This document shows positions 14,960 through 55,036 of a stretch of DNA of 57,379 nt, one piece after another. This stretch comes from Lichenifustis flavocetrariae. Its GTDB lineage: Bacteria > Pseudomonadota > Alphaproteobacteria > Rhizobiales > Beijerinckiaceae. The DNA is taken from NCBI RefSeq assembly GCF_026130545.1, contig NZ_JAMOIM010000030.1:1-57379 (forward strand). Reading direction: 5' to 3'. Numbering within the stretch: position 1 is the stretch's first letter; the number at the start of each line of letters is the position of its first letter. The position numbers and the translations under genes were made by a program. The notes beneath the pieces were generated by a model. That model saw nothing but the letters and a program-made list of their open reading frames with translations, was not told the origin of the DNA and searched no databases.

Positions 14960-17296
14960 CTAGGCCCTTATGCCGGCGCCGCGAGGTTCTAGCGACTCAG
15001 ATATCGAATCGGGAGGTGATCGTCCGCGCTCGTCGTGGGAGGCGTCCGCCCGCACTCGGGTCTTCTGCGGGTCAAAATGCGGGAAGGCCCCCACCTGAGC
15101 GGCGAGGCGCTTTTGATGACCGTCGAGCTTGCCGATCTCCACGGCCGTGCAGACAGCCGCACAGGCGACGTCGAGCCGGGCGAGCGCGATCGTCTTGCCC
15201 AGGATCGGCGACCTCGTGGCACTGGTCACGACGCCGATCTGCGCACGGCCGAGGTGGACGCAATCGCCCGATCCGACAGGCTCGTTGCCGACGACGTCGA
15301 GGCCCACGAGCTTGTGCATGGGATTGGCGCGACGCCGCGCCAACGCTCCCGCGCCGATATAGGGGTCGGCCTTGTCCTTGGGGACCACGAAGCCAATGCC
15401 GGCCTCGAAGGGGTCGGTCTGGTCGGAAAAGTCATAGCCGCCGAACGCGAGGCCAGCCTCGATCCGCAGCATGTCGAGCGCCTTCAGGCCGAGCGGCGCA
15501 ATGCCGTCCCCAGCGCCCGCGGCCATGACGGCATCCCACAACGCCGGCGCCTGCGCCGGATGGCACCACACTTCGTAACCGAGCTCGCCCGTATAGCCCG
15601 TGCGCGAGACAATCACCGGGATGCCGGAGATCTTGCCAACCGTGAAGCGGAACCACTTGAGCTCGATCAGCGTGGGATGGTGGGCGGGCGTGACCAGCAG
15701 CGTCGCCAGGATGGCACGCGACCGGGGACCCTGCACGGCGATGTTGTGGAGTTGGTCGGTCGACGTCTTCACCCAAGCCTTGAAGCCGCGCTCTGCCGCC
15801 AGCTCGCGAAGGTGGATGCCGCAATAGTCTTCCCCGCACACCCAGCGGAAATTGTGCTGGCCGAGGCGGAACACCGTGCCGTCGTCGATCATGCCGCCGT
15901 GCGCGTAACACATGGCCGTATAGACCACCTGACCGACCGCGAGCTTTTTGATGTCGCGCGTGACCGCGAGCTGCATCAGGTCTTCGGCATCGGGGCCAAT
16001 GACTTCGAACTTGCGCAACGCCGACAGGTCCATCACTGCGGCGCGCTCCCGGCAGGCCCAATATTCGGCGATGGGCCCTTCGTCGCTGAAGCAGTCGGGC
16101 AGCCAGAATCCCCTGTAGTCGACGAAGCTGCGGGTGAGCGCCGCCGTGCGGGGATGGAACCCAGTTTCGCGCGTCAGACGCGGCTCGGCATCGGGCGTCA
16201 TGCGGTGGGCGATCCCTTTGGAGAATGTCTCGGCCTTGTCGTAGAGGCGCACATGAATGTCGGTCGGGTTCCACGCATTCGCCGTGTCGATGTCGTCGGC
16301 GCAGGACGAAGTGGCGCATACCAAGTCAGTCAAGGCGCGCAGGAGCACGTAATCACCGGGGCGCGACCACGGCTCGTCCATGGCGATCGTGTCATCGGCC
16401 TGGACGAACGTGTTATAAAAGAAATTGATCGCGGGCCAGCCGGCCCGAGGCGCGACTCCGAATGGTTTCAGCGCGCGATTGAAATTATCCGTGCAGTTGT
16501 CGTGCCCCGGATAACCCATGTCCTCGTAATATTTGGCCGAACAGGCGAGCAGGAAAGCGTCATGACGGCCGACCGTGTCGCGGACGATCTCGACCAGCGG
16601 GGTCATGCGGGCATCGAAATATTTGGAGTGGAGCCCCGGTCCGGGGTTGGCGGTTCCCATCAGGGTTCGGGTCACGGTGGGATCGAGCCCGAACTCCCGC
16701 CCTTCCGCGAGCGCGGCCGCGTCGAAAGCCAGGAAATCGGAACATTGTTTCCCGTCGACGTCGATGATCTGGATGTAGTCGCCCGCGCTCACGCGAAAGG
16801 CCGATGCCGTCCCGGCGAGGATGCGCTGGTCGAGCTTGAGCATAGCGAGCGGCGGCGGTGCGATGCCGCTGCTCGGTCCTGCGGTCTCGATCTCGATGCG
16901 CAGGTCCGTGGGGGGCGTCTGCTGGTCCGGCGCCATCCGGGCGCCCGGGGCAATGACGGCGACCGTCGATCGGGACTGGGCCCGGAACACGACCGTCGCA
17001 CCCGGCTCGGCGTCGGCAGGAAAAAGGCTGAGGCCGCAGAGGTCGCCCATATCGGCATCGTGATGCCCTAAGGCGTCGCGCGCCGCCGCCACCTCGTCGT
17101 CACTCGGCTTGTCGTCACGCGGCGGAACGCCGTGCAGCACGGACATGTCGCGGGCGAACAGGAGGCCGCGCTGTCGGCCCTCGGCATCGACGACCCGGCA
17201 CAGGTCGCCCTCGGCCAGATCGAACACCGCCACCTCGCCGCCACGCAGCACGAGGCTCGTGCGACGAAGCGGAACCGCGCCGACGCGGACGTTCAT
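14960..17296 (-). CDS. tdm: trimethylamine N-oxide demethylase (DUF1989-GcvT fusion)
   Basis: Tdm splits TMAO into dimethylamine and formaldehyde, the C1 passing to tetrahydrofolate via the C-terminal domain. The 778-residue protein shows the expected order: a DUF1989-type N-terminal half (about 150-390) and a GcvT-like folate domain (about 400-740, with GYTGELGYEVW). The DUF1989 half keeps three conserved cysteines in QCSDF (Cys185), DNCTDN (Cys268) and SSCADDID (Cys332), which fit its metal site. An extra N-terminal DUF1989-like segment (1-140) matches the length of known Tdm. It begins 10 bp after tmm, is last in the operon, and acts in the cytoplasm. The fusion plus context make the call strong. 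Confidence 0.9.
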   Translation of the reverse strand: MNVRVGAVPLRRTSLVLRGGEVAVFDLAEGDLCRVVDAEGRQRGLLFARDMSVLHGVPPRDDKPSDDEVAAARDALGHHDADMGDLCGLSLFPADAEPGATVVFRAQSRSTVAVIAPGARMAPDQQTPPTDLRIEIETAGPSSGIAPPPLAMLKLDQRILAGTASAFRVSAGDYIQIIDVDGKQCSDFLAFDAAALAEGREFGLDPTVTRTLMGTANPGPGLHSKYFDARMTPLVEIVRDTVGRHDAFLLACSAKYYEDMGYPGHDNCTDNFNRALKPFGVAPRAGWPAINFFYNTFVQADDTIAMDEPWSRPGDYVLLRALTDLVCATSSCADDIDTANAWNPTDIHVRLYDKAETFSKGIAHRMTPDAEPRLTRETGFHPRTAALTRSFVDYRGFWLPDCFSDEGPIAEYWACRERAAVMDLSALRKFEVIGPDAEDLMQLAVTRDIKKLAVGQVVYTAMCYAHGGMIDDGTVFRLGQHNFRWVCGEDYCGIHLRELAAERGFKAWVKTSTDQLHNIAVQGPRSRAILATLLVTPAHHPTLIELKWFRFTVGKISGIPVIVSRTGYTGELGYEVWCHPAQAPALWDAVMAAGAGDGIAPLGLKALDMLRIEAGLAFGGYDFSDQTDPFEAGIGFVVPKDKADPYIGAGALARRRANPMHKLVGLDVVGNEPVGSGDCVHLGRAQIGVVTSATRSPILGKTIALARLDVACAAVCTAVEIGKLDGHQKRLAAQVGAFPHFDPQKTRVRADASHDERGRSPPDSISESLEPRGAGIRA

Positions 17297-17306
17297 GGGC
17301 GCACGC

Positions 17307-18659
17307 TCACTCGGCCGCGGAGGGCTGGTTGAGGAAGGCCGCCAACGAGTCGTCCATCGCTCGCATCCACGGCGTATGATGCACGGGAGCCATAGTTCCC
17401 GTGATGGTCGAGGGATAGGAGCGGTCCCGGTAGGTCAGGATACCCTCTTCCTTGTGGTGCTCCCATTGCTTGAAAAGCTCCGCCACACGGTCGACATCGA
17501 GGTGAGGGTAGTCGGTTGCCTGCAGAAGGTCACGCACGTAGTCGGTCTGGAAATCGATCATCTCCGAGGCATCCGCAAGCGCCTCCTCGCGGGCCACCCA
17601 TCGTCCGATGTCGGCCGCCATGCCGTCGCGGGCCGGCAGCGCGATACGTCCAAGCAACACGTCGCGGGCGTACCACGCCTGGGCATCGAACATGTTGAAC
17701 GTGTAGAATTGGTCCTGGGCGCCGATATACATCATCTTGGGGTTGGGCTCCCAGAAGATGCCCTTGTAGAGACCCGGCGGATAGAGGCGCGTCCGGGTCT
17801 TCAGCCGCAGTTCGTCCGGCAGGAACGGATAGTGATTGAGGTAGCCCGTGCAGAACACGATGGCGTCGACTTCAGCGCTAGATCCGTCCTTGAACACGCA
17901 ATGGTGTCCTTCGACCTTCTGCAGCAGAGGCCTCGTTTCGAAACCCTCTGGCCATTGAAAGCCCATCGGCTTCGTCCGATAGCTGAAGATGATCTTCTTG
18001 GCGCCGTACTTGTGGCACTGCACCCCGATGTCTTCGGCCGAGTAGCTCGCGCCGATCACCATTACGGTCTTGCCTGCGAATTCATCAGCGCAGCGGAAAT
18101 CATGCGCGTGGAGCACCCGGCCGAGAAACGTCTCAATGCCGCCGAATTTCGGAACGTTCGGCGTCGAGAAATGCCCGTTGGCCGCGACCACATAATCGAA
18201 CACGTCCGAGACGAGGTGATCCCCGGCCAGATCGTTGGCCAGCACCGTGAAGCTCGCCGTGTCCGGATCGTAGCTGACATGGCGAACGGCGTGATTGAAC
18301 TTCACGTGCTTGCGGACACCGCTCTTCTCGACCCGGCCCGCGATGTAATCGTGCAGGACGGCGCGGGGCGGAAACGACGGGATCGGCCGGCCAAAATGCT
18401 CCTCGAAGGAGTAGTCGGCGAATTCCAGACATTCCTTCGGGCCGTTCGACCAGAGGTAGCGGTACATGGAGCCGTGAACGGGCTCACCGAATTCGTCGAG
18501 CCCGGTGCGCCACGTGTAGTTCCACAAGCCGCCCCAGTTCGACTGTTTCTCGTAGCAGACAAGCTCCGGAACCTCGGCTCCCTTCAAGCGCGCCGCCTCG
18601 AAGGCTCGGAGCACCGCGAGGCCCGATGGACCGGCACCGATGATGGCTACCCTTGTCAT
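17307..18659 (-). CDS. tmm: trimethylamine monooxygenase (FMO-type)
   Basis: Tmm is an NADPH- and FAD-dependent flavin monooxygenase that oxidises TMA to TMAO. The 450-residue protein has FAD motif GAGPSG (8-13), the WGG and YRYLW segment, the FMO identifying run [11 protein letters not shown] (178-188), NADPH motif GASYSAED (203-210) and FCTGY (269-273). GASYSAEDI is characteristic of bacterial Tmm. The length is close to the roughly 450 residues of methylotroph Tmm. The ATG at 18659 has GAGGGTAGGA directly upstream; a longer frame from 18701 lacks support. It is flanked by the Dmm subunits and tdm, which fixes the substrate better than sequence alone. Related FMOs may also oxidise dimethyl sulfide. 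Confidence 0.92.
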
Positions 18660-18756
18660 TCCTACCCTCTTGTCGTGATGGTCTGACCGACCGTTTGGCA
18701 TCGTGGCGACCGGATGATGTTCGATTGTCGTCTATTGCTGGGCGGTGTGGCCCGCC

Positions 18757-19797
18757 TCAGTCAGCCCAAACGCCCGGGGATGTGGGCGCGCCGTCATCGT
18801 AGCGGGCCAGATAGTCGACCGCCGTCTGACGCCATCGCGACAGGCCCTTGTAGTCTGCGAGGTCCTGGGGAAGGTCGCGGAGGACCCGGTGCATGCGCCG
18901 TGCCCATTTGGGCTCCGTCACGAGCTCTTCGAGTTTCAACAGATAGCAGCGGATCGGGAACACCATCGCGTTGGAGCGCGGCAGGCGCCAAAAACTCTGA
19001 AGCTCGACCCGCAGGTGAACTTTATGGCCGACGTTCTCGGGCAACACCGTCATGCGGTCGGGTCCCCATTTGTGGTAGTTTTCCGGGCTCGTGTCGAGGC
19101 GCGCGTTGACCGTCATGGTCCAATTGGAGCGGCGCATCGGCTGCCCCTGGCGCAGTTGCAGCAGGAATTTGAGCGCTCGGTCGAATACCCCCAATTCATG
19201 GGCCCGCGGCACCGGCGCGTGCCATTCCATGAAGCTCATGCCGATGTCGAAATCGAGCGACCAGTCGGCCTGGGTGGTGACGATGCCGGCGTCCATCCAA
19301 AGGTCGCCGACGCGCTGGTCGAGCAGGCAGAAGTCGCCCTGCGCCTGGCGGGTAATGTATTCCATGGGGCCGTAAGGCAGCGTCGCGGCGTCGCCGAACG
19401 TGAACGTGTCGTCGATTCCGAGCGGCCGGTTGATCCAGCGCCAACGGGTGCTGTCGCGAACGAGCGTGAAATGATCCGGGTAGCCGGACGCCTGCTGCTC
19501 CATCAGCATTTCGAGTAGATCCCAGCCCGCCAATTCCATGTGGGGCAGAGACTGGCAGCGCAGCGGGTCCTCCTTGAGGACAAGAGCCTTGTCGGCCATC
19601 TCGGCGACGTAGTGCTCGTCGACGTCGATCAGGTGCTCGAAGGCGGTGCCGGGCCGCCCTTTGACGTGCGGCTCGATGTTGACCGCGTACATGTAGTCGT
19701 CGCGGTCGAACGGGAACGGAAAGCGTCGAATGGTGTCCGGGCTGTTGCGGAAGGTGAAGTCGTCCCGGAAACTTTCCTTGCGGAATTGAATGCCCAT
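18757..19797 (-). CDS. dmmC: dimethylamine monooxygenase haem subunit (DUF3445, HODM-like)
   Basis: This 346-residue DUF3445 protein is the haem-dependent oxidative N-demethylase subunit, which oxidises dimethylamine to methylamine and formaldehyde using electrons from the reductase subunit. Recognisable stretches are FPFPFDRDDYMYAVNI near the N-terminus, RWINRPLGIDDTF, and a C-terminal SNAMVFPIRCYLLKLEEL. The ATG at 19797 is preceded by GGGAAGA; upstream frame extension is unsupported. Predicted mass near 40 kDa fits the largest subunit of the classical three-subunit enzyme. The gene letter follows the D-A-B-C order seen here and is from memory of the marine operon, so treat the letter as provisional. 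Confidence 0.85.
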   Translation of the reverse strand: MGIQFRKESFRDDFTFRNSPDTIRRFPFPFDRDDYMYAVNIEPHVKGRPGTAFEHLIDVDEHYVAEMADKALVLKEDPLRCQSLPHMELAGWDLLEMLMEQQASGYPDHFTLVRDSTRWRWINRPLGIDDTFTFGDAATLPYGPMEYITRQAQGDFCLLDQRVGDLWMDAGIVTTQADWSLDFDIGMSFMEWHAPVPRAHELGVFDRALKFLLQLRQGQPMRRSNWTMTVNARLDTSPENYHKWGPDRMTVLPENVGHKVHLRVELQSFWRLPRSNAMVFPIRCYLLKLEELVTEPKWARRMHRVLRDLPQDLADYKGLSRWRQTAVDYLARYDDGAPTSPGVWAD

Positions 19798-19853
19798 CGT
19801 GTCGTCTTCCCGATTATCACAATCCCGGCGTCGCGGCGCCCTCGTGCCTTGGC

Positions 19854-20813
19854 TCACAGGTCCAGTGTCAGAAGCTCGCCCTCGAACCGAGACACACAGG
19901 GCATGACGCTGCGTCCCGATGCTTTTTCGTCTTCGCTCAGGAAGTGGTCGTGGTGCTGCAGGCGCCCGTCGCAGGCGAGAACCGTGGCTTGGCAATGCCC
20001 GCAGGCGCCGCCGCGACAAAGGTAGGGTGCGTCAACGCCGGCGGCCTCGATCGCTTCCAGCATGCCCTGGTGGGAGCCGACGTCGATCACCATCCCCGAG
20101 CGCGCAAGGCGCACGCGATAGGGCGCTCCTGCCGCAGGCGCCACGAAACGCTCGCTATGCAGGCTTTGCTCAGGCCAGCCGAGAGCCCGCGCCGCCGTCA
20201 GCACGCCGTCGATCAGCCGCTCGGGTCCGCACACGTAAAGGTGGGTGCCGAGGGGCTGGTGCCCCAGCACGGCTTCGACCGGGATCCGCTCGCCCTCGGC
20301 GGAGGCATAGACCTTGACGCGGTTGCCATAAAGATCGGCCAGTTCATCCGCATAGGCGGCGTGAATCCGCGACCGCACGCCATAATGAAGCTCGAACGCC
20401 TGCTGCTCCTCGAATGCCTGTGCGGCCATGGCCACGAAGGGCGTAATGCCGATACCGCCGGCGAGGAACACATGCTTCCGGGCGCGGCGCTCAAGGGAAA
20501 ACAGGTTGGCCGGATGGCTGATGAACAGGGTCGTGCCTTTCACCACATGGTCGTGCAGATAGCGTGAGCCGCCCCGGCCATCCTGGTCGCGGCGAATGCT
20601 GATCGTGTAGTCTACCGCGTTGGAGGGCGCGCCCATGAGCGAATAGGCGTTGCGGCGCAGGATGTCGCCGTCGCGCATTTCCACCACGATATGCGCCCCA
20701 CCCGAGAAGCCCGGAAGCGGGCCGCCGTCGAGAGCGGCGAAGTGGAAGCGTTTGACGAGCGGCGTGACAGTGACGACATCCGTCACCCGAACCGGAATAC
20801 GCGGCTGGCTCAC
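19854..20813 (-). CDS. dmmB: dimethylamine monooxygenase reductase subunit (PDR/VanB family)
   Basis: This 319-residue phthalate-dioxygenase-reductase-type protein passes electrons from NAD(P)H through flavin and a [2Fe-2S] centre to the haem subunit. It has flavin motif RNAYS (54-58), nucleotide motif GGIGITPF (119-126), and a C-terminal plant-type ferredoxin domain with Cys265, Cys270, Cys273 and Cys305. The GTG at 20813 overlaps the upstream TGA (GTGA), with GAGGAG 8 nt before it, so it is translationally coupled to dmmA. The upstream extension of the frame is only overlap with dmmA. Confidence 0.88.
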   Translation of the reverse strand: MSQPRIPVRVTDVVTVTPLVKRFHFAALDGGPLPGFSGGAHIVVEMRDGDILRRNAYSLMGAPSNAVDYTISIRRDQDGRGGSRYLHDHVVKGTTLFISHPANLFSLERRARKHVFLAGGIGITPFVAMAAQAFEEQQAFELHYGVRSRIHAAYADELADLYGNRVKVYASAEGERIPVEAVLGHQPLGTHLYVCGPERLIDGVLTAARALGWPEQSLHSERFVAPAAGAPYRVRLARSGMVIDVGSHQGMLEAIEAAGVDAPYLCRGGACGHCQATVLACDGRLQHHDHFLSEDEKASGRSVMPCVSRFEGELLTLDL

Positions 20814-21403
20814 TTGAAGAGCTCCTCGAGGGGCGGCACGACACCAGGGTCCTCGGCATCGATACAAACACCTTGGAACGCCGCCACGCGGCGCGAATAG
20901 TGGTCGCGCACCAGGAGGGTCAGCCCGCAATGGCTGCAGCGGCACGGCTGGCTAGTCACGTCTTCGGTGATCCCCTTGCAATGGACGCACTGCACCCGTC
21001 GGGCCAGCGAACCCCGATGTTCCGCCTCGATCGAGGCATGATCCATGCCGGCCTCCATCGCCATGCGGGTGGCTTGCCCGATTAGCCCTTCGGTGCCGGC
21101 AAGGTACAGGCGGGTTCCCATACGGGCGGTCGCCAGAACCTGCCCGAAACGGGGCAAGGCAGCCGCGAGGCTCGGTCCCTCGAACAGGGTGTCTGGCTCG
21201 AGGCGCCTCAGCTTCGCAAGGTAATGGTCGTCGGCGGGGCTCAGCGGAATGTAGAGGATATGCGCATGGGCAAAGAAGCCGGGCGGCGCCTGCGAGGCCA
21301 TGTCGAGGACGGCCGCGCCGCCCTCGCCGTCGACCGCGAAAAGGTGCATGTGACCCGGACGCGGCGTCAGGGGCCGGTAAACGGGGCGGCTCTTGATCGG
21401 CAC
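20810..21403 (-). CDS. dmmA: dimethylamine monooxygenase small subunit, DmmA family
   Basis: This 197-residue protein has the family pattern of a small dimethylamine monooxygenase subunit: a Rossmann-like half with GTRLYLAGTEGLIGQA (about 96-111) and a C-terminal zinc or rubredoxin-like ribbon with CVHC (Cys139, Cys142) and CSHC (Cys156, Cys159), then LLVRDHYSRRVAAFQGV. It starts at a GTG at 21403 with GGAGTGAGG upstream. Its stop overlaps dmmB. Its exact part in electron transfer is unknown. Size near 22 kDa suits the smallest of the three purified subunits. Confidence 0.82.
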   Translation of the reverse strand: MPIKSRPVYRPLTPRPGHMHLFAVDGEGGAAVLDMASQAPPGFFAHAHILYIPLSPADDHYLAKLRRLEPDTLFEGPSLAAALPRFGQVLATARMGTRLYLAGTEGLIGQATRMAMEAGMDHASIEAEHRGSLARRVQCVHCKGITEDVTSQPCRCSHCGLTLLVRDHYSRRVAAFQGVCIDAEDPGVVPPLEELFK

Positions 21404-21463
21404 CGCAGCCTCACTCCGTGCTGGAGAACAGCGGAGGAAGAGCTGGTTGGGAAGCGGTCGGAA

Positions 21464-22600
21464 TCATGCCGCGTTCCGCTTCTTCTTCTCAGGGTCGTCG
21501 AAGTTGATTGGGTGCGCGACGGCGGCGCAGTGCCCCGATTGACCTTCGACCTGCAGCGGGGTGCCTTCCCGCGCGACCGCCACATCCATGCGGGCAATCG
21601 CCAGGGAGCGTCCTGTTGCACGCGAATACATCCCGCAGGTCACGATACCGACCTTCTTTCCGTCTGCGTAGAGAACATCGCCCGCGTCGAGCGGCTTGTC
21701 GGAATCGGCGACCACGCCGAAGATCTTGAAGCGCTCACGGCCCTTCAGCCGGGCGTGCTCCTCGGCGCCACGGAAGCCGACCTTTCCGGGCGAGACCGTG
21801 AAGTCGAGCCCCAGTTCCCACAGGGTGTCGCCGGGCGGCTCGTCCGCGAATGGGTACATCTGCGAATTATCGTAGGGGAAGAACAGCAGGTAGCTTTCGA
21901 CGCGCAGCCAGTCCAGCGCCGTGAACGAGGCCGGCACAATGCCTATCGGGCGGCCTTCGGCCACGATCGTGTCCCAGATCTCCGTGGCATCTTCGGCCTT
22001 GCAGAAGATCTCATAGCCGCGCTCGCCGGTGTAGCCGGTTCGGGAGATCATCACATGCTTGCCGAACAGCGTCGTCTGCAGGTGGTGGAAGTATTTGAGC
22101 TCTCGGATACCAGGCACATGTCTGGCGAGATACTCTACCGCCACGGGCCCTTGCAGCGACAAATCCTGCAGGTCGTCGTCGAACAGCAGCGCGGCATTCT
22201 TGCCGAGCACGTCCTTCGTGATTTCCTCGTAGCCCGTGCCGGAACCCAGCACCACCATCCAGGAATTCGGACCTGTGCGATACAGGATGCAGTCGTCGGT
22301 AAACTTGCCGCCATCGTTCAGCATGCAGGCGTAAACGGAGCGGCCCGGGTAGATCTTGCGCACGTCGCGGGTCGTGGCACGCTGCAACACGTGGTGGGAA
22401 TGCGGACCGACGAGGTGCACCTTCCGCAGGCCCGATACGTCCATCAGGGCGGCTTTAGTGCGCACGGCCTCGTGCTCGTCGGCGAGATCGCTGGCCGTGT
22501 AGGTCCAGGCGGTCTCCATGCCGTTCCAGTCTTCGAGCGCAGAGCCTAGCGCCCGGTGCCTGTCCGCCAGGGGAGATCGCCGCCAGGACATCACGCTCAT
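21464..22600 (-). CDS. dmmD: GcvT-like tetrahydrofolate-dependent aminomethyl/C1 transferase of the dmm operon
   Basis: This 378-residue protein resembles glycine-cleavage T-protein: ALMDVSGLRKVHLVGP near the start, CILYRTGPNSWMVVLGSG in the middle, and the folate-domain signature RTGYTGERGYEIF. A GGAGGAAAAG ribosome site precedes the ATG. No other glycine-cleavage genes are nearby. Its place before dmmA-B-C matches the dmmDABC arrangement, where it probably captures formaldehyde released by demethylation as methylene-tetrahydrofolate. It is similar in fold to the C-terminal half of Tdm, so the operon carries two such C1-trapping domains. Confidence 0.85.
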   Translation of the reverse strand: MSVMSWRRSPLADRHRALGSALEDWNGMETAWTYTASDLADEHEAVRTKAALMDVSGLRKVHLVGPHSHHVLQRATTRDVRKIYPGRSVYACMLNDGGKFTDDCILYRTGPNSWMVVLGSGTGYEEITKDVLGKNAALLFDDDLQDLSLQGPVAVEYLARHVPGIRELKYFHHLQTTLFGKHVMISRTGYTGERGYEIFCKAEDATEIWDTIVAEGRPIGIVPASFTALDWLRVESYLLFFPYDNSQMYPFADEPPGDTLWELGLDFTVSPGKVGFRGAEEHARLKGRERFKIFGVVADSDKPLDAGDVLYADGKKVGIVTCGMYSRATGRSLAIARMDVAVAREGTPLQVEGQSGHCAAVAHPINFDDPEKKKRNAA

Positions 22601-24455: not shown

Positions 24456-24720
24456 ATCTGAACTTTAACCACCGCGTGCCTTCTTCTTGACCAGTATGCC
24501 ATCGCAATGATCTGTATTGCCGCAAGGTCGTGATTGAAGAACGAGGGGCTTCGTCGGCATGGATAGACGGCGGTCGACAAGGCGCGCTCGATCATCCATC
24601 GCCTCTTTGTGGACACTTGTTTGAGCGCGGCCGGGAAGCGCGGAACACAAGCGGTGATGTCGCAAAATCGCAGATGCGCCCCACACGCGGCGTGACTGAT
24701 TATGGGATCAGGGATTTTTG

Positions 24721-34269: not shown

Positions 34270-34362
34270 CACCGAGGCCGTTCAATCGTCGTCGGCATTG
34301 GTATTCGTCGGAGCATCGGCCGCCTATCGCCACGATCCATAGGACCGTGTCATAAATACGGA

Positions 34363-40293: not shown

Positions 40294-40304
40294 GCACGCC
40301 GGCG

Positions 40305-44365: not shown

Positions 44366-44368
44366 GCC

Positions 44369-45331: not shown

Positions 45332-45344
45332 GAAGGGACGTACG

Positions 45345-46598: not shown

Positions 46599-46626
46599 CG
46601 ATGGCTGACGCCCGGAGGCCACGATC

Positions 46627-47562: not shown

Positions 47563-48431
47563 TGCGTGCAGCGGCCCTGACGCGTCGCTTCGGCCTCTGG
47601 CTTGCCACCGGCGCGTTGCTGCTGTGGTCACTCGGCCCGATCTACTGGGCCGTCGCTACGAGCCTGACGGCACCCACCGACCTCGTGGCGCAGCCACCGC
47701 ATTTCCTGCCACCGCGCGTTACCTTCGAGCACTACGGGAAGCTCCTTGGAGCTACCAGCAGCTATCTAGGCACGGATATCCAATCCGTGTGGCCGCAATT
47801 CAGCCGAGCGCTAGTGAACAGCCTCGTGGTGTCCACCCTCGCCACCGTGGCAACGGTGGCGCTGGCCGCATTCGGCAGCTACGCTTTCGTGCGCCTCCGC
47901 TTTCCCGGCCGCAACCTGCTGTTCGTGCTTATCGTGGGCACCCTTGCGGTACCGGCCTATACGGTGATGATCCCACTTTACCGCCTTCTCGTGTGCCTGC
48001 ACCTTATCGACACCTATCTCGGCATCACTCTGATCTATGTGTCCGCCTTTCTGCCGCTGGCGCTCTGGCTGATGCGGAGCGTCTACCAGTCTCTGCCGCT
48101 GTCGCTGGAGGAGGCGGCGCGGCTCGACGGCGCCGGTCGCACCTATACGCTGCTCTTTATCGTACTGCCCATCGCGGCGCCCGGGCTGATCGCGAGCGCG
48201 ATCCTCACCTTCCTGAGCGCCTGGGGCCAGTTTATGATCCCGCTTGTCTTCTCTCCGACGCTCGCAACCAAGCCCCTAACGGTGCTGATCCCTGAATTTG
48301 TGACCAAGAACTATGTCGACTATGGGCTGATGAATGCCGCAGGCGTTCTCGCCATCCTGCCGCCGATCGCGGTGGTGCTCTTTCTCAACCGCTACCTCGT
48401 CCAGGGCCTGATGGCCGGATCGGGGAAGTAG
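47562..48431 (+). CDS. sugar ABC transporter permease, MalG type
   Basis: This 289-residue permease has six hydrophobic segments and the EAA loop PLSLEEAARLDGAGRTYTL. It overlaps the previous gene by one base. No MalK-type ATPase follows; the importer must use an ATPase encoded elsewhere, as multitask sugar ATPases do in other bacteria. Confidence 0.88.
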   Translation: MRAAALTRRFGLWLATGALLLWSLGPIYWAVATSLTAPTDLVAQPPHFLPPRVTFEHYGKLLGATSSYLGTDIQSVWPQFSRALVNSLVVSTLATVATVALAAFGSYAFVRLRFPGRNLLFVLIVGTLAVPAYTVMIPLYRLLVCLHLIDTYLGITLIYVSAFLPLALWLMRSVYQSLPLSLEEAARLDGAGRTYTLLFIVLPIAAPGLIASAILTFLSAWGQFMIPLVFSPTLATKPLTVLIPEFVTKNYVDYGLMNAAGVLAILPPIAVVLFLNRYLVQGLMAGSGK

Positions 48432-48449
48432 CCCAGACGGAACCTCTTC

Positions 48450-49415
48450 ATGAACACCACCGAACGCGTCATCCGCGAGCAGTTCCCTTTCTGGCGCAAA
48501 GCAACTGCCGTGGCGGCCTTCACGGACCGTGACTCGACCTTCGTGATCGTCGGCTGCGGCACCTCCTATCACCTCGCCCAAAGCATCGCAGCGTCGTTCA
48601 ACCTGCGCGGCTTGCGGGCGATCGCCGTGCCGGGCGGAGAATGGTCGCGCCGCCGCACGACCTATTTGCCGGACGGCTTCAAGACGCATGTCATCGGCTT
48701 GTCGCGCAGCGGTGAATCCACCGAGACCGTCCAGGCTCTCGAGGTGAGCCGGACGGCCGGCTACGCCACGACGGCGGTCACTTGCGAGCAAGGCAGCAGC
48801 ATCACTAAAGCAGCCGACACCGTCATCTTCACCGCGACGCATCCCGACGAGGGCATCGTGATGACGGCTTCGGCGAGCCTCATGCTGCTGGTCGGCCTGC
48901 GGTTGGCTGGGATCACGGTGGGAGAGCCGGAGGTGGCTGCGGCCCAAGCGGCGCTCGAAACCTTCGAGGCGTTGCTGCCGGCCGTGCTCGACGGACGCAG
49001 CCATCCGGTTCTCCTTGGCGCGGGTGCGCTTTACGGCATCGCGGCGGAAGGCGGCATCAAGCTGCAGGAGATGAGCCTCAGCCACGTACAGAGCTATCAA
49101 CCCATGGAGTACCGGCACGGTCCCATCAGCCTCGTCGACGACCAGAGTTTCGCGGTGTTACTCTACAGCGCGGAAACCTTTGCCGAGGAAGTGCGGATCT
49201 CGACCGAGGTGCAGAACAAGGGCGCCCGGGTGATCGGCCTCGGCGGCCCGGGCGATGCCGGCGTGGAGGTGGGCGGTTCGATTGAGGCGCGCAGCCTTGT
49301 CGTGCTGCCGATGCTGCAGGTCCTCGGCGAGCGCGCGGCGGAGATGCGCGGTCTCGACACGAGCGCGCCGCGCTACCTCAAGAAGGTCGTGGTCCTCGAC
49401 CGAACGCCGGCCTGA
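48450..49415 (+). CDS. SIS-domain aminosugar isomerase/deaminase-like protein
   Basis: This 321-residue protein has two SIS sugar-phosphate-isomerase domains (VIVGCGTSYHLAQSIA, then SRSGESTETV, and VLLGAGALYGIAAEGGIKLQ). It resembles the isomerase half of glucosamine-6-phosphate synthase, including QPMEYRHGPISLVDD. Stand-alone proteins of this kind act as glucosamine-6-phosphate deaminases or ketose/aldose isomerases (AgaS/FrlB). It closes the amino-sugar operon and converges with the sarcosine-oxidase-like gene, 4 bp away. Confidence 0.84.
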   Translation: MNTTERVIREQFPFWRKATAVAAFTDRDSTFVIVGCGTSYHLAQSIAASFNLRGLRAIAVPGGEWSRRRTTYLPDGFKTHVIGLSRSGESTETVQALEVSRTAGYATTAVTCEQGSSITKAADTVIFTATHPDEGIVMTASASLMLLVGLRLAGITVGEPEVAAAQAALETFEALLPAVLDGRSHPVLLGAGALYGIAAEGGIKLQEMSLSHVQSYQPMEYRHGPISLVDDQSFAVLLYSAETFAEEVRISTEVQNKGARVIGLGGPGDAGVEVGGSIEARSLVVLPMLQVLGERAAEMRGLDTSAPRYLKKVVVLDRTPA

Positions 49416-49419
49416 GTCG

Positions 49420-50589
49420 TCAGACGAAGCGACCGAGCGCGAAGGGCTGCAGGTCGATGCGGCTCCGACCGTCGGCCAGCAACGCGGCCAGCGCTTCACC
49501 GATACCGGCCGAATGCTTGAAGCCGTGGCCCGAGCAGGCCGAGACCACGGTGACGCGGTCCATTTCCGGATGCTGGTCGATAATGAAACCCCGGTCGGGC
49601 GTGACAGTGTAGAGGCACACGGCCGCCTTCGCGACCTGTGGGGTGGCACCCGCGAGCCGGCCCGCGATGCTGTCTCGGTACATGCGCTCCGACTCGGCCG
49701 GGTCGACGGTGCGGTCCACGGCTGTCGCCGTTGTTCTGGTCTCGTACTGCTCCTTGGCGACTTTGACCCGCGGGTCGCCCGCGAGCGGCGGAAAGCCGTA
49801 GAAATAGTCGGCATCCGTCTTGCCATACATCCAGATGTAGACGGGCGACCCGGGACCGTAGGCGCTCACGTCATCGAGGGCGAACCAATGCAAGAGCTGG
49901 CGACTGACGCTCAGCAGGCGATCGAAAGGCGCCCCCAGGAGCGGCACCGACCAGGCACCCGCCGAGACCACGACGCGATCCGCAACGATCGGTCCGTCCG
50001 ATGTGGTGAGCCGGACGCCGGCGCCGTCCCGCGACAGGCTATCGACCGCGATCCCGGTATGCACGGTCGCGCCGAGCGCTGCCGCCCTTGCGAGCTGCAC
50101 CGCGACGCAGGCCTCCGGCACCAGAAAGCCGCCGCCCGGCTCGTAATAGGCCTTTTCGCTCCCCGTGAGGCCGAGGAACATGGGAAAGCGGAGCGCCACC
50201 TCGGTACCGTCGATCACCTCGTGCGGGATGCGTCCGGCCTCGGCCGACGCGATCGAGCGCGCCGTGAAATCCGGCATGCCATGGTGGGTCGTCACGCCAT
50301 CTCCCGGACCCATGACGAGGGCGCCGCATTGATGGAACAGCGTCGCCCCGGTGTCCGCCTCGAGTTCGCGCCAGATCCGGTGCGAGGCTTGGGCCAAGGG
50401 AACGTAGTCGCGGCCCTCGCCGACACCCGCGCGGGTGATGCGGGACTCGCCGTGGCTGGAACCGAGATCATGCGGTGGCGCGTAGCGGTCGATCCCAACC
50501 ACCTTGGCGCCGTGCTTGGCCAGTTGGTAGAGCGTGGCGCTGCCCATGGCGCCGAGCCCCACCACGGCCACGTCGTATCGTTCGGTCAT
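49420..50589 (-). CDS. monomeric sarcosine-oxidase/N-methyl-amino-acid oxidase-like flavoenzyme
   Basis: This 389-residue flavoprotein of the MSOX/SolA family oxidatively removes an N-methyl group as formaldehyde, with H2O2. It has VVGLGAMGSATLYQL (about 9-23), HGESRITR, and Cys325 in AAVCLYTVTPDRGF, the position of the covalent FAD attachment in MSOX. It is the last gene of the mgs-gmaS operon, 25 bp after gmaS, where N-methylglutamate pathways usually carry the four-subunit mgdABCD dehydrogenase. It is therefore the best local candidate for N-methylglutamate oxidation. Sarcosine or another N-methyl amino acid remains possible. Confidence 0.85.
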   Translation of the reverse strand: MTERYDVAVVGLGAMGSATLYQLAKHGAKVVGIDRYAPPHDLGSSHGESRITRAGVGEGRDYVPLAQASHRIWRELEADTGATLFHQCGALVMGPGDGVTTHHGMPDFTARSIASAEAGRIPHEVIDGTEVALRFPMFLGLTGSEKAYYEPGGGFLVPEACVAVQLARAAALGATVHTGIAVDSLSRDGAGVRLTTSDGPIVADRVVVSAGAWSVPLLGAPFDRLLSVSRQLLHWFALDDVSAYGPGSPVYIWMYGKTDADYFYGFPPLAGDPRVKVAKEQYETRTTATAVDRTVDPAESERMYRDSIAGRLAGATPQVAKAAVCLYTVTPDRGFIIDQHPEMDRVTVVSACSGHGFKHSAGIGEALAALLADGRSRIDLQPFALGRFV

Positions 50590-50614
50590 CGCTCCCGGTC
50601 CCGTGTCGGCGTTG

Positions 50615-51922
50615 TCAGACGTCGAGCGTGGTGTCGCGCTCCCACTGAGTGAAATGGGACGTGTAGCTTTGCCATTCCGCCTGCTTCATCTTCAGGTATG
50701 CGGCCGAAAAATCCGTGCCCATCATGCCCTTCAGGTCTTCGTCGCGGTCGAAGGCCCGGAGGGCATCGAGCAGGTTCAAAGGCAGCTTGGGCGCGTCCGT
50801 CACCGTATGGCCCAACTGGTACATGTCGATATCGAGGCGCGGACCCGGATCGGCCTGGGAGCGGACGCCATCGAGGCCGGCCGCGATGATGACTGCTTGC
50901 AGCAGGTAGGGGTTGGCGGCACCATCCGGCAGCCGCAACTCGAAGCGGCCCTTGCCGGGCACGCGCACCATGTGGGTGCGGTTGTTGCCCGTCCAGGTCA
51001 CGGTGTTGGGCGACCAAGTGGCGCCCGAGACGGTACGCGGGGCGTTGATGCGCTTGTAGCTATTCACCGTCGGGTTGGTGATGGCCGCGAGCGCCTCGGC
51101 ATGCTTCATGATACCGCCGAGGAAATGGTAGCCCTGCCGGGACAGCCCCATCTCATCGTTCGAGGCGTAAAAAGCGTTCGTGGTGCCGGCGCGGTCCCAG
51201 ACCGAGATATGGGCGTGGCAGCCTGAGCCCGTGAGGCCCGGAAACGGTTTCGGCATAAAGGTTGCCCGCAGCCCGTGTTTCTCGGCCACCGAGCGTACCA
51301 TGAACTTGAAGAAGGAATGCCGGTCGGCCGTGATAAGCGAATCGTCGAAGGCCCAGTTCATCTCGAACTGGCCGTTCGCGTCCTCGTGGTCGTTTTGGTA
51401 GGGCTGCCAGCCGAGCTCGAGCATGTAGTCGCAGATCTCGGCGATGATGTCGTAGCGCCGCATCAGGGCCTGCTGATCGTAGCAGGGCTTCGTGGCATTG
51501 TCCTTGCCGTCCGAGATCGTGCCGCCGTCCGCGTCGATCAGGAAGAACTCGGCCTCGACGCCGGTCTTGACATGCAGGCCTTCCTTGGCGGCTTCGGCCA
51601 CGAGGGTCTTCAGCACGACGCGTGGTGCTTGTGGCACCGGCTTCTCCTCCATGACGCAATCGGCCGGCACCCAGGCGACCTCCCGTTTCCAGGGAAGCTG
51701 GATTACCGCTTCGGCGTCGGGCAACGCGAATAGATCCGGGTGCGCCGGGGTCATATCGAGCCAAGTGGCGAAACCCGCAAAGCCGGCCCCATCCTTCTGC
51801 ATGTCGGCGATGGCGGCGGCCGGAACCAGCTTGGCGCGTTGTGCGCCGAACAGGTCCGTGTAGGAGATCATGAAATAGCGGATGCCGCGCTCTTTCGCGA
51901 GGCTGGCGAGATCTTGGGTCAT
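50615..51922 (-). CDS. gmaS: gamma-glutamylmethylamide synthetase (GlnT-type glutamine synthetase relative)
   Basis: This 435-residue protein makes gamma-glutamylmethylamide from glutamate, methylamine and ATP, the entry to the N-methylglutamate pathway. It has the glutamine-synthetase fold with the type III/GmaS hallmark YQNDHEDANGQFEMNW, GVEAEFFLID, TFMPKPF-containing ATP site, GSGCHAHISVW and NRTHMVRVPGKGRFELR. It is shorter than GlnA (about 470) and lacks the adenylylation-loop Tyr context. Its position directly after mgsC fixes the assignment. Cytoplasmic. Confidence 0.9.
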   Translation of the reverse strand: MTQDLASLAKERGIRYFMISYTDLFGAQRAKLVPAAAIADMQKDGAGFAGFATWLDMTPAHPDLFALPDAEAVIQLPWKREVAWVPADCVMEEKPVPQAPRVVLKTLVAEAAKEGLHVKTGVEAEFFLIDADGGTISDGKDNATKPCYDQQALMRRYDIIAEICDYMLELGWQPYQNDHEDANGQFEMNWAFDDSLITADRHSFFKFMVRSVAEKHGLRATFMPKPFPGLTGSGCHAHISVWDRAGTTNAFYASNDEMGLSRQGYHFLGGIMKHAEALAAITNPTVNSYKRINAPRTVSGATWSPNTVTWTGNNRTHMVRVPGKGRFELRLPDGAANPYLLQAVIIAAGLDGVRSQADPGPRLDIDMYQLGHTVTDAPKLPLNLLDALRAFDRDEDLKGMMGTDFSAAYLKMKQAEWQSYTSHFTQWERDTTLDV

Positions 51923-51959
51923 GCGCGTTCTCCTGAGGATCGAGCGAATGATGGGCGGC

Positions 51960-53288
51960 TCAGAAGCCGGCTTGTCCGGGGATCCATGACGTCCCCGCGA
52001 GCGGTACGCGGGCCATTGCGGCGGCCTCGATCGTGAGGGCGCACAAGTCCTCCGGCTCGAGATTGTGGAGGTGGTTCTTGCCGCAGGCGCGCGCGATTGT
52101 CTGCGCCTCCAACGTCATTACCTTCAGATAATTGGCCAGGCGCCGCCCGGCGAGCACCGGGTCGAGCCGGGCCATGAGCTCGGGATCCTGGGTCGTAATG
52201 CCGGCCGGGTCCTTGCCCTCGTGCCAATCGTCATAGGCACCGGCCGTGGTGCCGAGCGCATTATATTCCGCCTCGTAGGCAGGGTCGTTATCCCCGAGCG
52301 CCACCAGGGCCGCCGTGCCGATCGAGACCGCATCGGCGCCGAGCGCCAGCGCCTTGGCCACATCGGCGCCGTTTCGGACGCCGCCCGAGACGATGAGTTG
52401 AACCTTTCTGTGCATGCCGAGGTCTTGCAAGGCTTGTACCGCAGGCCGGATGCAAGCGAGGGTCGGCATGCCGACGTTCTCGATGAACACGTCCTGGGTC
52501 GCGGCCGTGCCGCCCTGCATGCCGTCGACCACCACCACGTCGGCGCCGGCCTTCACGGCCAGGGCCACGTCATAGTAAGGCCGCGCGCCACCGACTTTGA
52601 CAAAGATCGGCTTCTGCCAATCGGTGATCTCGCGCAATTCGAGAATCTTGATTTCCATGTCGTCCGGCCCCGTCCAGTCGGGGTGACGGCATGCCGAACG
52701 CTGGTCGATGCCCTTGGGCAGCGTGCGCATATTGGCGACCCGGTCGGTGATCTTCTGGCCGAGCAACATGCCGCCGCCGCCAGGCTTGGCGCCCTGCCCC
52801 ACGACGATCTCGATGGCATCGGCCTTGAGCAGGTCTTCTGGGTTCATACCATAGCGTGAGGGCAGGTACTGGTAGACAAGCGTCTGGCTTTGTCCGCGCT
52901 CCTCGGTCGACATGCCGCCGTCGCCGGTGGTGGTCGAGGTGCCGGCCGCAGAGGCGCCGCGCCCGAGCGCCTCCTTGGCGTTGGCCGAAAGCGAGCCGAA
53001 GCTCATGCCCGCCACTGTGATGGGGATTTTCAATTCAAGCGGCTTCTTGGCAAAGCGCGCGCCGAGCACGACTTCGGTGCCGCAGCGCTCGCGATAGCCC
53101 TCGAGCGGATAGCGCGAGATGGAGGCGCCGAGGAACAGGAGATCGTCGAAATGGGGTAGCCGCCGTTTCGAGCCGCCACCTCGGATGTCATAGATGCCTG
53201 TGGTGGCCGCCCGGCGGATCTCCGACAGCGTGTAGTCGTCGAAGGTTGCGGACTTGCGAGGAATGGTAGGAGGGTTCTCGTAAGACAT
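51960..53288 (-). CDS. mgsC: N-methylglutamate synthase FMN-binding subunit (glutamate-synthase-like)
   Basis: This 442-residue protein is the FMN-binding glutamate-synthase-type barrel: ITVAGMSFGSLSANAKEALG, GEGG-like TTTGDGGMSTEER, GQGAKPGGGGMLLG, VKVGGARPYYDVA and VDGMQGGTAATQ. It transfers methylamine from gamma-glutamylmethylamide to 2-oxoglutarate with the other two subunits. The ATG at 53288 follows GAAGG; the 11-residue longer frame is unsupported. A 158-bp gap with a palindromic repeat separates it from mgsB. Separate small subunits and context with gmaS distinguish it from ammonia-assimilating GltB. Confidence 0.9.
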   Translation of the reverse strand: MSYENPPTIPRKSATFDDYTLSEIRRAATTGIYDIRGGGSKRRLPHFDDLLFLGASISRYPLEGYRERCGTEVVLGARFAKKPLELKIPITVAGMSFGSLSANAKEALGRGASAAGTSTTTGDGGMSTEERGQSQTLVYQYLPSRYGMNPEDLLKADAIEIVVGQGAKPGGGGMLLGQKITDRVANMRTLPKGIDQRSACRHPDWTGPDDMEIKILELREITDWQKPIFVKVGGARPYYDVALAVKAGADVVVVDGMQGGTAATQDVFIENVGMPTLACIRPAVQALQDLGMHRKVQLIVSGGVRNGADVAKALALGADAVSIGTAALVALGDNDPAYEAEYNALGTTAGAYDDWHEGKDPAGITTQDPELMARLDPVLAGRRLANYLKVMTLEAQTIARACGKNHLHNLEPEDLCALTIEAAAMARVPLAGTSWIPGQAGF

Positions 53289-53308
53289 GGGATAGCCTTC
53301 AGCGCTCC

Positions 53309-53436
53309 GTCTCCCGCACACAGGAGAAGGTGTCGCGGCGAAGCCGTGACGGAGGAATGGAATTCAAGTTCAAAAATCCCCTCACGCGACCTCGCGCTTT
53401 GCGGGACCACTTTCTCCTGCTAGCGGGAGAAAGGAG
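53309..53436. repeat. palindromic intergenic element (RIME/REP-like)
   Basis: This non-coding block between mgsB and mgsC contains two strong hairpins. One is GTCGCGGC-GAA-GCCGTGAC at 53332-53350, and the other is CTTTCTCC-N8-GGAGAAAG at 53410-53433. A third imperfect CTCCCGCACACAGGAG lies at 53311-53325. Such paired palindromes resemble rhizobial intergenic mosaic elements. It may stabilise the upstream mRNA or lower mgsC output. Confidence 0.55.
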
Positions 53437-53446
53437 GGGCGGCGCC

Positions 53447-54136
53447 TCAGCCGTAGGCGTCGGCGTGGTCGACGCTGAAATTGTAGAGTTTTCGCGCTGA
53501 GCCGTAGCGCTTGAAATCGGATGCCTTGACGTCCACGATGCCGGCGCGGTTGAGCAAAGCCTGCAGGGCATGCAGGTGTTCGCCCCGCATTTCCTTCTCG
53601 ATGCAGTCGGCTCCGAGGCTCTTCACCGCCCCGCGCACGAAGAGTTTGGCCTCGTAAATCGAGTCGCCGAGCGCGTCGCCCGCGTCCCCGCAGACGACGA
53701 GGTGCCCGGCCTGAGCCATGAAGGCCGACATATGGCCTATCGAGCCCCGCACCACGATATCGATGCCCTTCATCGAGATGCCGCAGCGTGACGAGGCATT
53801 GCCCTCGATGATCAGGAGCCCGCCCTTGCCGGTGGCACCGGCGTATTGGCTGGCGTCGCCCTTCACCCGAACCTCACCCGACATCATGTTCTCGGCCACG
53901 CCGGGGCCGGCCGAGCCGTACACCGTCACGCTCGCTTCACGGTTCATGCCGGCGCAATAATAGCCGACGCTGCCCTTGATCTCGACCGCGATGGGCGCGT
54001 TGACGCCGACCGCAACCGCATGGCTGCCGCGGGGGTTAAGCACTTCCCACAGGGTCTCGTTCGTGCCAGATCCCTGGCTGTGCAGGGCGGCGTTCAGCTC
54101 GCGGAGCCCTGTCTGCGCTAGGTCGATGACCGGCAT
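53447..54136 (-). CDS. mgsB: N-methylglutamate synthase GXGXG-domain subunit
   Basis: This 229-residue protein is a right-handed beta-helix of the glutamate-synthase GXGXG type, with repeats such as VEIKGSVGYYCAGMNREASV, GEVRVKGDASQYAGATGKGG and GHLVVCGDAGDALGDS. It corresponds to the C-terminal domain of large glutamate synthase as a separate subunit. It starts 3 bp after mgsA, so the two are probably coupled. Confidence 0.9.
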   Translation of the reverse strand: MPVIDLAQTGLRELNAALHSQGSGTNETLWEVLNPRGSHAVAVGVNAPIAVEIKGSVGYYCAGMNREASVTVYGSAGPGVAENMMSGEVRVKGDASQYAGATGKGGLLIIEGNASSRCGISMKGIDIVVRGSIGHMSAFMAQAGHLVVCGDAGDALGDSIYEAKLFVRGAVKSLGADCIEKEMRGEHLHALQALLNRAGIVDVKASDFKRYGSARKLYNFSVDHADAYG

Positions 54137-54139
54137 GAG

Positions 54140-55036
54140 TCAGCGCTCCCAGAAATAAACGGTTGCGGGCTCGGGCTCCCAGACGCGGGCCGCTTCGATT
54201 CCCGGAAGGTTGACGAGCGCCCTGTATTCCGACCCGAAGGCGACGTATTGGTCGGTCTCAGCCAGCACCGCGGGCTTACAGGCGATCGGATCGCGCAGGA
54301 CACCGAAGCCGGTCTTGGTGCCGACCACGAAGGTGTAGAACCCGTCGAGGTCGTCGAGGCTCTTCTCGAGCGCTGCGCCGAGGCTCAGGCCCTTGTCCAT
54401 CTGCGCCGTCAAATAGGCGGCCGCCACTTCCGAGTCGTTCTCGGTTTCGAAGCGCATGCCCTCGCGCACCATGTCGCGGCGCAGGTTGTTGTGATTGCTG
54501 AGAGAGCCGTTGTGGACAAGGCACTGGTCGGCTCCGGTCGAGAACGGGTGTGCGCCGAGCGTGGTCACGGCCGATTCAGTTGCCATGCGGGTGTGACCGA
54601 TGCCGTGCGTGCCCGTCATTCCGGCCAGACCGAAGCGCTGCACTACGTCTGTCGGGTAGCCGACTTCCTTGTAAATCTCAATCACGTCGCCGACTCCCAT
54701 CACACGCACCGCCGGATGATCGGCCCGCAATGCGTCCCGTGCGGCTACGGCCCTATCGGCCGGTAGGCTCAGGACCGCATGCGTCGTCTTGCGATGCATC
54801 GCGACATCGGCGCCGATGCGCTTCGCCAGCGCGCTGTCGAGGCCCGCGAAAGCCGCGTCAGGATCGGCGGCCTGAACCGTGATCTTGGCTCGGCCGTCCT
54901 GCGGCGCGCCATAGACCGCAAACCCGGCGCTGTCCGGCCCCCGGTCGCACATGGTGGCCAGCATGCTGGACAAGAGTTGGCCCAGCTGCTTCTCCAGCTC
55001 CTTGTCTTTCAGGAAAAGTCCGACGATCCCGCACAT
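54140..55036 (-). CDS. mgsA: N-methylglutamate synthase amidotransferase-like subunit (class II)
   Basis: This 298-residue class II glutamine-amidotransferase domain has the N-terminal nucleophile Cys2 directly after Met (MCGIVGLF). The ATG at 55036 is chosen for that reason over a GTG at 55048. Other motifs are MCDRGPDSAGFAVYG, GIGHTRMATESAV and CLVHNGSLSNHNNLRR. It would cleave gamma-glutamylmethylamide and channel methylamine to MgsC. It is first in the operon, with the operator-like box 60 bp upstream. Confidence 0.9.
   Translation of the reverse strand: MCGIVGLFLKDKELEKQLGQLLSSMLATMCDRGPDSAGFAVYGAPQDGRAKITVQAADPDAAFAGLDSALAKRIGADVAMHRKTTHAVLSLPADRAVAARDALRADHPAVRVMGVGDVIEIYKEVGYPTDVVQRFGLAGMTGTHGIGHTRMATESAVTTLGAHPFSTGADQCLVHNGSLSNHNNLRRDMVREGMRFETENDSEVAAAYLTAQMDKGLSLGAALEKSLDDLDGFYTFVVGTKTGFGVLRDPIACKPAVLAETDQYVAFGSEYRALVNLPGIEAARVWEPEPATVYFWER

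Follow-up and report, generated by a model that had tools for sequence, protein, structure and literature searches.

A candidate cofactor-less trimethylammonia-lyase within the trimethylamine gene set of Lichenifustis flavocetrariae

Ergothioneine is reportedly degraded by a published five-step pathway, whose steps we name here after NCBIfam models. Ergothionase is described in a passage of one paper as confined to a few genera, and a BLAST search is stated there to return ammonia-lyases (PMC13405746). For the oxidation of trimethylamine (TMA) in Ruegeria pomeroyi, parts of two papers give the genes tmm, tdm, dmmDABC and gmaS-mgsABC (PMC5520151, PMC13390433), and a review of trimethylamine N-oxide (TMAO) has passages mentioning both ergothionase and trimethylamine monooxygenase (PMC6213249). 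Among the open-licence PMC matches listed, no paper combined ergothionase with dimethylamine monooxygenase, and no title or beginning of an abstract described a locus joining betaine cleavage to complete methylamine catabolism. Here we analyze a whole contig of Lichenifustis flavocetrariae, 57,379 bases long (C104, hereafter the window), in which a gene at 34983-36497 (+ strand) encodes an aromatic-amino-acid-lyase homologue without the 4-methylidene-imidazol-5-one (MIO) triad, in a block that splits a set of TMA genes in two. Our best reading, to which we give about as much credence as doubt, is that this protein would be a cofactor-less trimethylammonia-lyase, with a specificity other than that of ergothionase, feeding the TMA route.

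The genome (G000) is a 7.5 Mb draft of 180 contigs, 99.7% complete. Genes were called from open reading frame (ORF) length and codon-position GC, and families were assigned with NCBIfam and Pfam; window ORFs were scanned in full over 14960-55048 and in part beyond. The lyase homologue, a proposed trimethylammonia-lyase, matches Lyase_aromatic over its full length (E 4.8e-128). Histidine ammonia-lyase (HAL) was considered and ruled out: the protein reaches 350 and 383 bits with the HAL models, whose cut-offs are 539 and 524, and has no MIO triad. That the triad is missing had been claimed in an earlier note made from the sequence alone, and the loop alignment bears this out: the loop reads GSIGTS-DLML against GSVGASGDL in HAL, with the triad gone and one residue deleted. 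The ergothionase of Treponema denticola (PDB 6s7j) has the same one-residue deletion (SSIGEG-D). Since the protein is an aromatic-amino-acid-lyase relative lacking MIO, it may plausibly release a group other than ammonia. A profile built from six non-MIO lyases had 6s7j as its best match (4e-121), followed by HAL (2e-117). The window lyase is 27% identical to 6s7j; R57, S195, N197 and G382 are the same in both, and both retain HAL positions Q277, R283 and E414.

HAL position 83 is Arg in the window lyase, whereas it is His in HAL and 6s7j. Arg is found there in 31 of 33 aligned non-MIO rows, the window's included, and His in all 23 MIO rows (seven repeat rows having been dropped beforehand and two PDB chains not counted). 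The two non-MIO rows without Arg-83 are a lyase adjoining EgtB in genome G545 and a lyase on contig C93 of the window's own genome. The nearest relatives outside the genus, from G933 (51% identity) and G708 (49%), both carry YGLTRG and Arg-83 like the window lyase, and a 41% identical lyase of G744 carries YGLTTG and Arg-83. Two lyase-motif scans of genome contigs returned no orthologue: none of the 118 stretches of one was a relative, and the 46 stretches of the other included one 24-residue match, from a Lachnospiraceae metagenome-assembled genome. The lyase relatives in plasmid records (142 records at 1e-50) all fall short of 60% identity, and at the DNA level there is one short match. Two further lyases are encoded in the genome, an ordinary HAL on contig C41, near hut, and the long-branched homologue on C93 (66867-68330). 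The latter has a larger loop deletion (SVGY---V) and His-83, and forms a long branch sister to the other non-MIO lyases; a TcuC-like transporter is encoded nearby, and the neighbours gave no clue to its role.

The main support for a methylated amine as leaving group comes from the neighborhoods of other non-MIO lyases. We surveyed 30 non-MIO loci and 21 HAL loci, covering at most some 10 kb to either side, or less where a contig was shorter. An OsmF-type quaternary-ammonium binding protein is encoded at 14 of the 30 non-MIO loci, 72-100% identical to that of locus L100, which scores 159 with the OsmF model, below the cut-off of 400. A fused DAO-GcvT demethylase occurs at seven, three of which also have an MttB-like gene (that of L095 falls below the TIGR02369 cut-off), and EgtB at one. 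OsmF-type or DAO-GcvT genes are present at 21/30 non-MIO loci, versus 0/21 HAL loci at a threshold of at least 50% identity. Further cases were found after this survey. In Rhizobium sp. CC-CFT758, a non-MIO Arg-83 lyase annotated as hutH lies in a gene run with a glycine-betaine ABC transporter; in Streptomyces chartreusis, a non-MIO lyase has an OsmF-like match of 35% nearby; the G933 lyase is 1.6 kb from a DAO-GcvT gene; and the G744 lyase adjoins an MttB-like gene. As far as gene neighborhoods can tell, a broader tie of non-MIO lyases to methylated-amine genes thus appears to survive.

The newest element of the locus is the pairing of the lyase with a cupin. The gene list of the earlier note, in which the named genes are real, had overlooked a DMSP_lyase-family (DddQ-like) cupin at 34363-34986 (+), which scores 106.3 bits with PF16867 (cut-off 27) and is thereby related to the enzyme that forms dimethyl sulfide in the sea. 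Its nearest solved structures are 4b29 (1.5e-27) and DddQ 5jso (4.7e-25), and its His-x-His, EELY and a later His align with DddQ, where we take the aligned His and Tyr to be the metal-ligand site. The cupin stop codon overlaps the lyase start (ATGA). In the other lyase-bearing genome of the genus (G086), cupin (55% identical) and lyase (72%) lie in one open frame of 731 codons, with no stop between them. A joint function is favored by the overlap in one genome and the single frame in the other. In a draw of 298 family genomes, a sample size used also for the lyase and tmm counts, the cupin is matched at 1e-12 in 15. A second PF16867 cupin of the window's genome, on C135 (157 bits), has no lyase within the stretch examined, and plasmid records hold two cupin matches only, at 38-43%.

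The lyase orthologue and tmm also occur together. The orthologue is present in 2/298 family genomes, both among the 17/298 with tmm, and in a drawn sample of six genus members the same two have lyase and tmm while the other four have neither. By chance, tmm would be present in both lyase genomes with a probability of about 0.003 across the family and 0.067 inside the genus. As we picture it, the protein would be a C-N lyase of an Arg-83 class distinct from ergothionase, expelling TMA from a betaine for which the neighboring Opp-type ABC transporter may be the importer. The DddQ-like cupin, translationally coupled to the lyase, may share its substrate or take the unsaturated acid that the lyase forms. 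TMA would then pass through Tmm, Tdm, Dmm and GmaS/Mgs, and an arm of D-hydantoinase, D-carbamoylase, DAO and RidA may process the carbon part through a D-amino acid.

A number of observations weigh against this scheme. Loss of MIO is no proof that TMA is the leaving group, and the transporter here is Opp-type. Eight of the 30 non-MIO loci have none of OsmF, DAO-GcvT and EgtB, and at the genome's own hut locus, which carries a HAL, a sarcosine-oxidase gene is present along with a weak match to DAO-GcvT. The Fisher p for the marker contrast (2e-7, or 2e-6 counting the own hut locus) is biased and overstates independence, because the markers were chosen after viewing the non-MIO loci and the OsmF loci all belong to a single clade. 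In G708, the DAO-GcvT and MttB matches are weak and some 18-20 kb off, and there is neither cupin nor hydantoinase in the lyase stretches of G933 and G708. No lyase stands beside the cupin in six examined of the 13 cupin genomes other than the two with the lyase, and no counterparts of the window's RidA, DAO and first carbon-nitrogen hydrolase genes turned up in the G086 module. Furthermore, the lyase module of G086 is at 1.03-1.05 Mb, about 1 Mb from the TMA cluster, and out to about 19 kb from the orthologous lyase no TMA gene was found; with this layout, the physical union of lyase and TMA genes is seen only in the window genome. Finally, the co-occurrence of lyase and tmm amounts to two genomes of one genus. 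The union of the locus into one pathway, as first proposed, is weakened by the distance in G086 and helped by the presence of tmm in both lyase genomes.

The earlier note held that the lyase fits ergothionase, in which case the locus would degrade ergothioneine to glutamate and burn TMA alongside. The common loop deletion, the four agreeing residues and the nearby hydantoinase and carbamoylase genes speak for this; we nevertheless regard it as highly improbable. As a yardstick, 387 genomes of the order were searched for thiourocanate hydratase, of which 27 match at 1e-240 and 26 exceed the cut-off. The window's genome has no match at 1e-240, and a genome search for a urocanase-like hydratase returned one urocanase only, beside HAL in hut, so that the absence previously noticed in the window extends to the whole draft genome. 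No thiohydantoin desulfurase is recognizable; one S-methyl thiohydantoin desulfurase (S-Me-THD) homologue, on C107, is without an NCBIfam match at 1e-25. The two window amidohydrolases reach 177-226 bits with ErtD models against cut-offs of 600-650, and the window carbamoylase is of D- rather than L-type, in place of ErtE; neither ErtD nor ErtE was searched for genome-wide. We examined 20 of the 27 hydratase loci. Five have a lyase homologue, in each case non-MIO with His-83; as all of these come from one family (f24), they are not independent of each other and amount to a single group; in the other 15 there is no lyase homologue within the stretch. In the tree, the five group with 6s7j (96/93) and the EgtB-linked lyase of G545, also with His-83, joins them (90/92), whereas the window lyase falls within an Arg-83 clade of 19 rows (97/96). 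A single clade of the window and G086 lyases with those seven, a group chosen after earlier trees had been seen, is rejected (approximately unbiased test, p 5e-97); in a smaller set without the five hydratase-linked lyases it is not (p 0.08). The use of His-83 as a criterion for ergothionase is our own and not a published one. The identification as ergothionase is not supported by the residue, the tree and the missing pathway genes. G086 has, over cut-offs, S-methyl thiourocanate hydratase, S-methyl thiohydantoin desulfurase, ErtD and ErtE on another contig (C2, 152 kb, at 54000-73900), so that in this genus an ergothioneine-type pathway can exist separately from a module like that of the window. 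The same cluster includes a lyase above the HAL cut-off with its ASG triad intact.

It is also conceivable, if unlikely, that the lyase acts on oxidized ergothioneine, for example the sulfonate, or on a ring-oxidized histidine betaine. Arg-83 would then meet an acidic or oxo ring, the cupin would remove sulfite or prepare the hydantoin, and the D-hydantoin arm would finish the job. Such a role would suit a pocket that shares part of the ergothionase residues and has Arg for His, a metal-site cupin overlapping the lyase, and the presence of D-hydantoinase and D-carbamoylase. A pathway for ergothioneine sulfonate has reportedly been published, and is reported to include a metal-dependent sulfite-lyase. 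However, Arg-83 recurs in 31 of the 33 non-MIO rows with varied neighbors, and no ring hydratase was identified. A different view, doubtful but to be taken seriously, is that lyase and hydantoin module are an independent catabolic island that came to lie inside the TMA cluster by chance, in which case the leaving group may differ. This view is favored by the separation of the module from the TMA cluster in G086, by the apparently unrelated sugar operon in the same interval and by the module's own transporter; the quaternary-ammonium or methylamine genes that often neighbor other non-MIO lyases, and the presence of tmm in both lyase genomes, argue against it.

The TMA genes stand on both sides of the lyase block, as the earlier note had it, and NCBIfam and Pfam confirm them; all are on the minus strand. 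On one side are tdm, for TMAO demethylase (14960-17296; NF053776, 1248.9 bits, cut-off 1100); tmm, for trimethylamine monooxygenase (17307-18701; NF058570, 812.8 bits, cut-off 675); dmmC, for a dimethylamine monooxygenase subunit (18757-20019; PF11927 HODM_asu-like, 2.8e-71, without an NCBIfam match); dmmB, for the reductase subunit (19854-20945, the start being unrefined and overlapping the dmmC ORF; ferredoxin-reductase and ferredoxin matches below cut-offs); dmmA (20810-21403; NF041259, 118.2 bits, cut-off 60; PF22290 and PF22289); the GcvT-like dmmD (21464-22600; GcvT-family matches below cut-offs), which adjoins dmmA in G086; and a TMAO permease gene (22649-24364; NF053774, 883.2 bits, cut-off 690). 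The dmmC counterpart in G086, 82% identical, follows dmmB, and the order dmmD-A-B-C is conserved in G086, G035, G097 and G002. The plasmid DNA nearest to the tdm-permease block is from Rhizobium in 77/91 records, in keeping with an alphaproteobacterial host. On the other side are a gene for a SolA/N-methyltryptophan-oxidase-like flavoprotein (49420-50589; NF008425, 437.6 bits, cut-off 257); gmaS, for gamma-glutamylmethylamide synthetase (50615-51922; TIGR03105, 670.8 bits, cut-off 469.6); and mgsC (51960-53321), mgsB (53447-54136) and mgsA (54140-55048), for N-methylglutamate synthase, with Pfam domain matches across mgsC/B/A of PF01645 (4.4e-87), PF01493 (5.2e-9) and PF13522 (4.6e-19). The order of mgsABC beside gmaS is identical in G086 and G002.

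By their family matches, tmm, tdm, dmmDABC, gmaS and mgsABC make up a recognizable route from TMA to N-methylglutamate, with all members present. The earlier note carried the methylamine steps through to glutamate; gmaS, mgsABC and the SolA-like oxidase are indeed there, but no mgdABCD, for N-methylglutamate dehydrogenase, is found among the window ORFs scanned. As the sarcosine-oxidase alpha model also has its single genome match (at 1e-60) on contig C41 and not in the window, the step to glutamate appears incomplete by known genes here. The SolA-like gene comes 25 bp after gmaS, and its product might be a single-subunit N-methylglutamate oxidase; around the gmaS of G086, no homologue of it was detected. 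The permease gene and the SolA-gmaS operon of the window are 25 kb apart, with the lyase module and the sugar operon in between. On contig 1 of G086, mgsABC, gmaS, the permease gene, dmmDABC, tdm and tmm are contiguous at about 7-23.5 kb, and in G002 mgsABC and gmaS are within 8-12 kb of dmmDABC and tmm. These are the two genomes, of seven examined around tmm, with gmaS-mgs within the stretch, some contigs ending early. No repeats of at least 24 bases were found around 24.2-50.7 kb.

The 25 kb block begins with a carbon-nitrogen hydrolase gene (24718-25560, +; PF00795, 2e-34). Next to it are an NAD-dependent epimerase/dehydratase family gene (25615-26682, -) and an SDR oxidoreductase gene (26722-27540, +), kept in the G086 module at 79% and 82% identity, and an AllB-like amidohydrolase gene (28286-29644, +; TIGR03178, 301 bits, cut-off 358), kept at 63%, which scores 207.8 and 177.1 bits with the ErtD models (cut-offs 600 and 650). 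An SDR-like ORF of 119 residues (29714-30073, +) may be a gene cut short in the window, its G086 counterpart being an SDR ORF of 289 residues (L033, 15081-15950). The presence of hydantoinase, carbamoylase, RidA-family and DAO-family genes, named in the earlier note, is confirmed by NCBIfam and Pfam. The product at 30415-31353 (-) is N-carbamoyl-D-amino-acid hydrolase-like (PDB 1fo6, 7.7e-100; 79% in G086): the 11 best of 15 sequences compared are D-carbamoylases, at 1.1e-97 or better, the next being at 7.2e-24. The hydantoinase at 31338-32762 (-) is D-hydantoinase-like (TIGR02033, 428.8 bits, cut-off 393; 72% in G086) and D-type by its nearest structures (1nfg, 4.5e-90, versus L-hydantoinase 1gkr, 3.3e-56). 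The RidA-family gene (32774-33121, -; TIGR00004, 47.7 bits, below the cut-off of 106) and the gene for a DAO-family FAD oxidoreductase (33118-34272, -; PF01266, 1.2e-56) follow. These four products could convert a D-hydantoin to a keto acid. The earlier proposal that they finish the ring side is matched in its genes, but the hydantoin enzymes are D-type.

Beyond the lyase, on the plus strand, lie a peptide/nickel-type ABC substrate-binding protein gene (36638-38299; NF045468, 175 bits, below the cut-off of 600; 84% in G086), a PuuE-like amidase gene of unrefined start (38241-39314; TIGR03212, 413 bits, cut-off 425; PuuE 3cl6, 5e-110; 70% in G086), and genes for two Opp-type permeases and a fused two-domain ATPase (39124-43159, starts unrefined). 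The last three have G086 counterparts of 72-85% identity, which lie about 15-19 kb away from the lyase there. A DeoR regulator, a sugar-kinase-like gene, a sugar ABC transporter and a SIS-domain gene (43556-49415, +) separate the lyase module from the SolA-gmaS operon, and apparently have no relation to the module.

Other neighborhoods attracted our attention. At L095, L111 and L040 (in G366, G401 and G084), a non-MIO lyase gene stands with an MttB-like methyltransferase, DAO-GcvT and an Opp-type ABC transporter, and another betaine pathway is possible there. In G545, the non-MIO His-83 lyase adjoins EgtB, of ergothioneine biosynthesis, and a B12 radical-SAM protein above the tryptophan 2-C-methyltransferase cut-off is encoded in its vicinity. 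L205 and L206, on plasmids of Burkholderia ambifaria and Paraburkholderia graminis, combine an MIO-bearing hutH with a 44-45% urocanase homologue, two amidohydrolases and a Zn-dependent hydrolase, by gene content an unusual histidine-like catabolic cluster. At L084 and L087 (in G140 and G207), DMSP_lyase-family cupins have as neighbors an Opp-type ABC transporter and a two-domain FMN/pyridine-nucleotide oxidoreductase of 650 residues, whose architecture is that of trimethylamine dehydrogenase.

We may tentatively go further and see in the locus a betaine module, composed of a trimethylammonia-lyase of new specificity, a DddQ-like cupin (fused to it in one species) and a D-hydantoin arm, with the Arg-83 lyases as a wide class of trimethylammonia-lyases acting on several betaines. 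This would give a role to a DMSP-lyase-like cupin, and the pairing opens a route to the function of related cupins. At least one Arg-83 lyase is annotated HutH in the public record, that of Rhizobium sp. CC-CFT758; should these lyases release TMA, histidine ammonia-lyase annotations of this kind would be wrong and would conceal a set of TMA sources; where TMA originates in the sea, in soil and in the gut is a question of current interest. The prediction is an absence of activity on histidine and a release of TMA from those betaines whose uptake systems adjoin the genes.

Compared with known systems, the window lyase resembles ergothionase of T. denticola in family, in the absence of MIO, in the loop deletion and in Q277, R283 and E414, and differs from it in having Arg for His-83, in being 27% identical and in belonging to another clade. 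Unlike a genome with the five-step ergothioneine pathway, that of the window has no thiourocanate hydratase or recognizable desulfurase; there is no ErtD among the window amidohydrolases, and a D-type carbamoylase takes the place of ErtE. As in pairs of D-hydantoinase and N-carbamoyl-D-amino-acid hydrolase, the two enzymes are encoded by adjacent, codirectional genes; unlike in such pairs, they diverge from a cupin-lyase operon with PuuE-like and Opp-type ABC genes. The cupin of the window shares the aligned His-x-His, EELY and later His with DddQ DMSP lyase (5jso, 4la2; also 4b29), but overlaps with a lyase, and its G086 counterpart lies in one frame with a lyase. Finally, the window and R. 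pomeroyi, as described in the parts of the papers cited above, have tmm, tdm, dmmDABC and gmaS-mgsABC in common; in the window, unlike R. pomeroyi, the set is split by a 25 kb lyase-bearing block, a SolA-like gene follows gmaS, and mgdABCD is not seen among the ORFs scanned.

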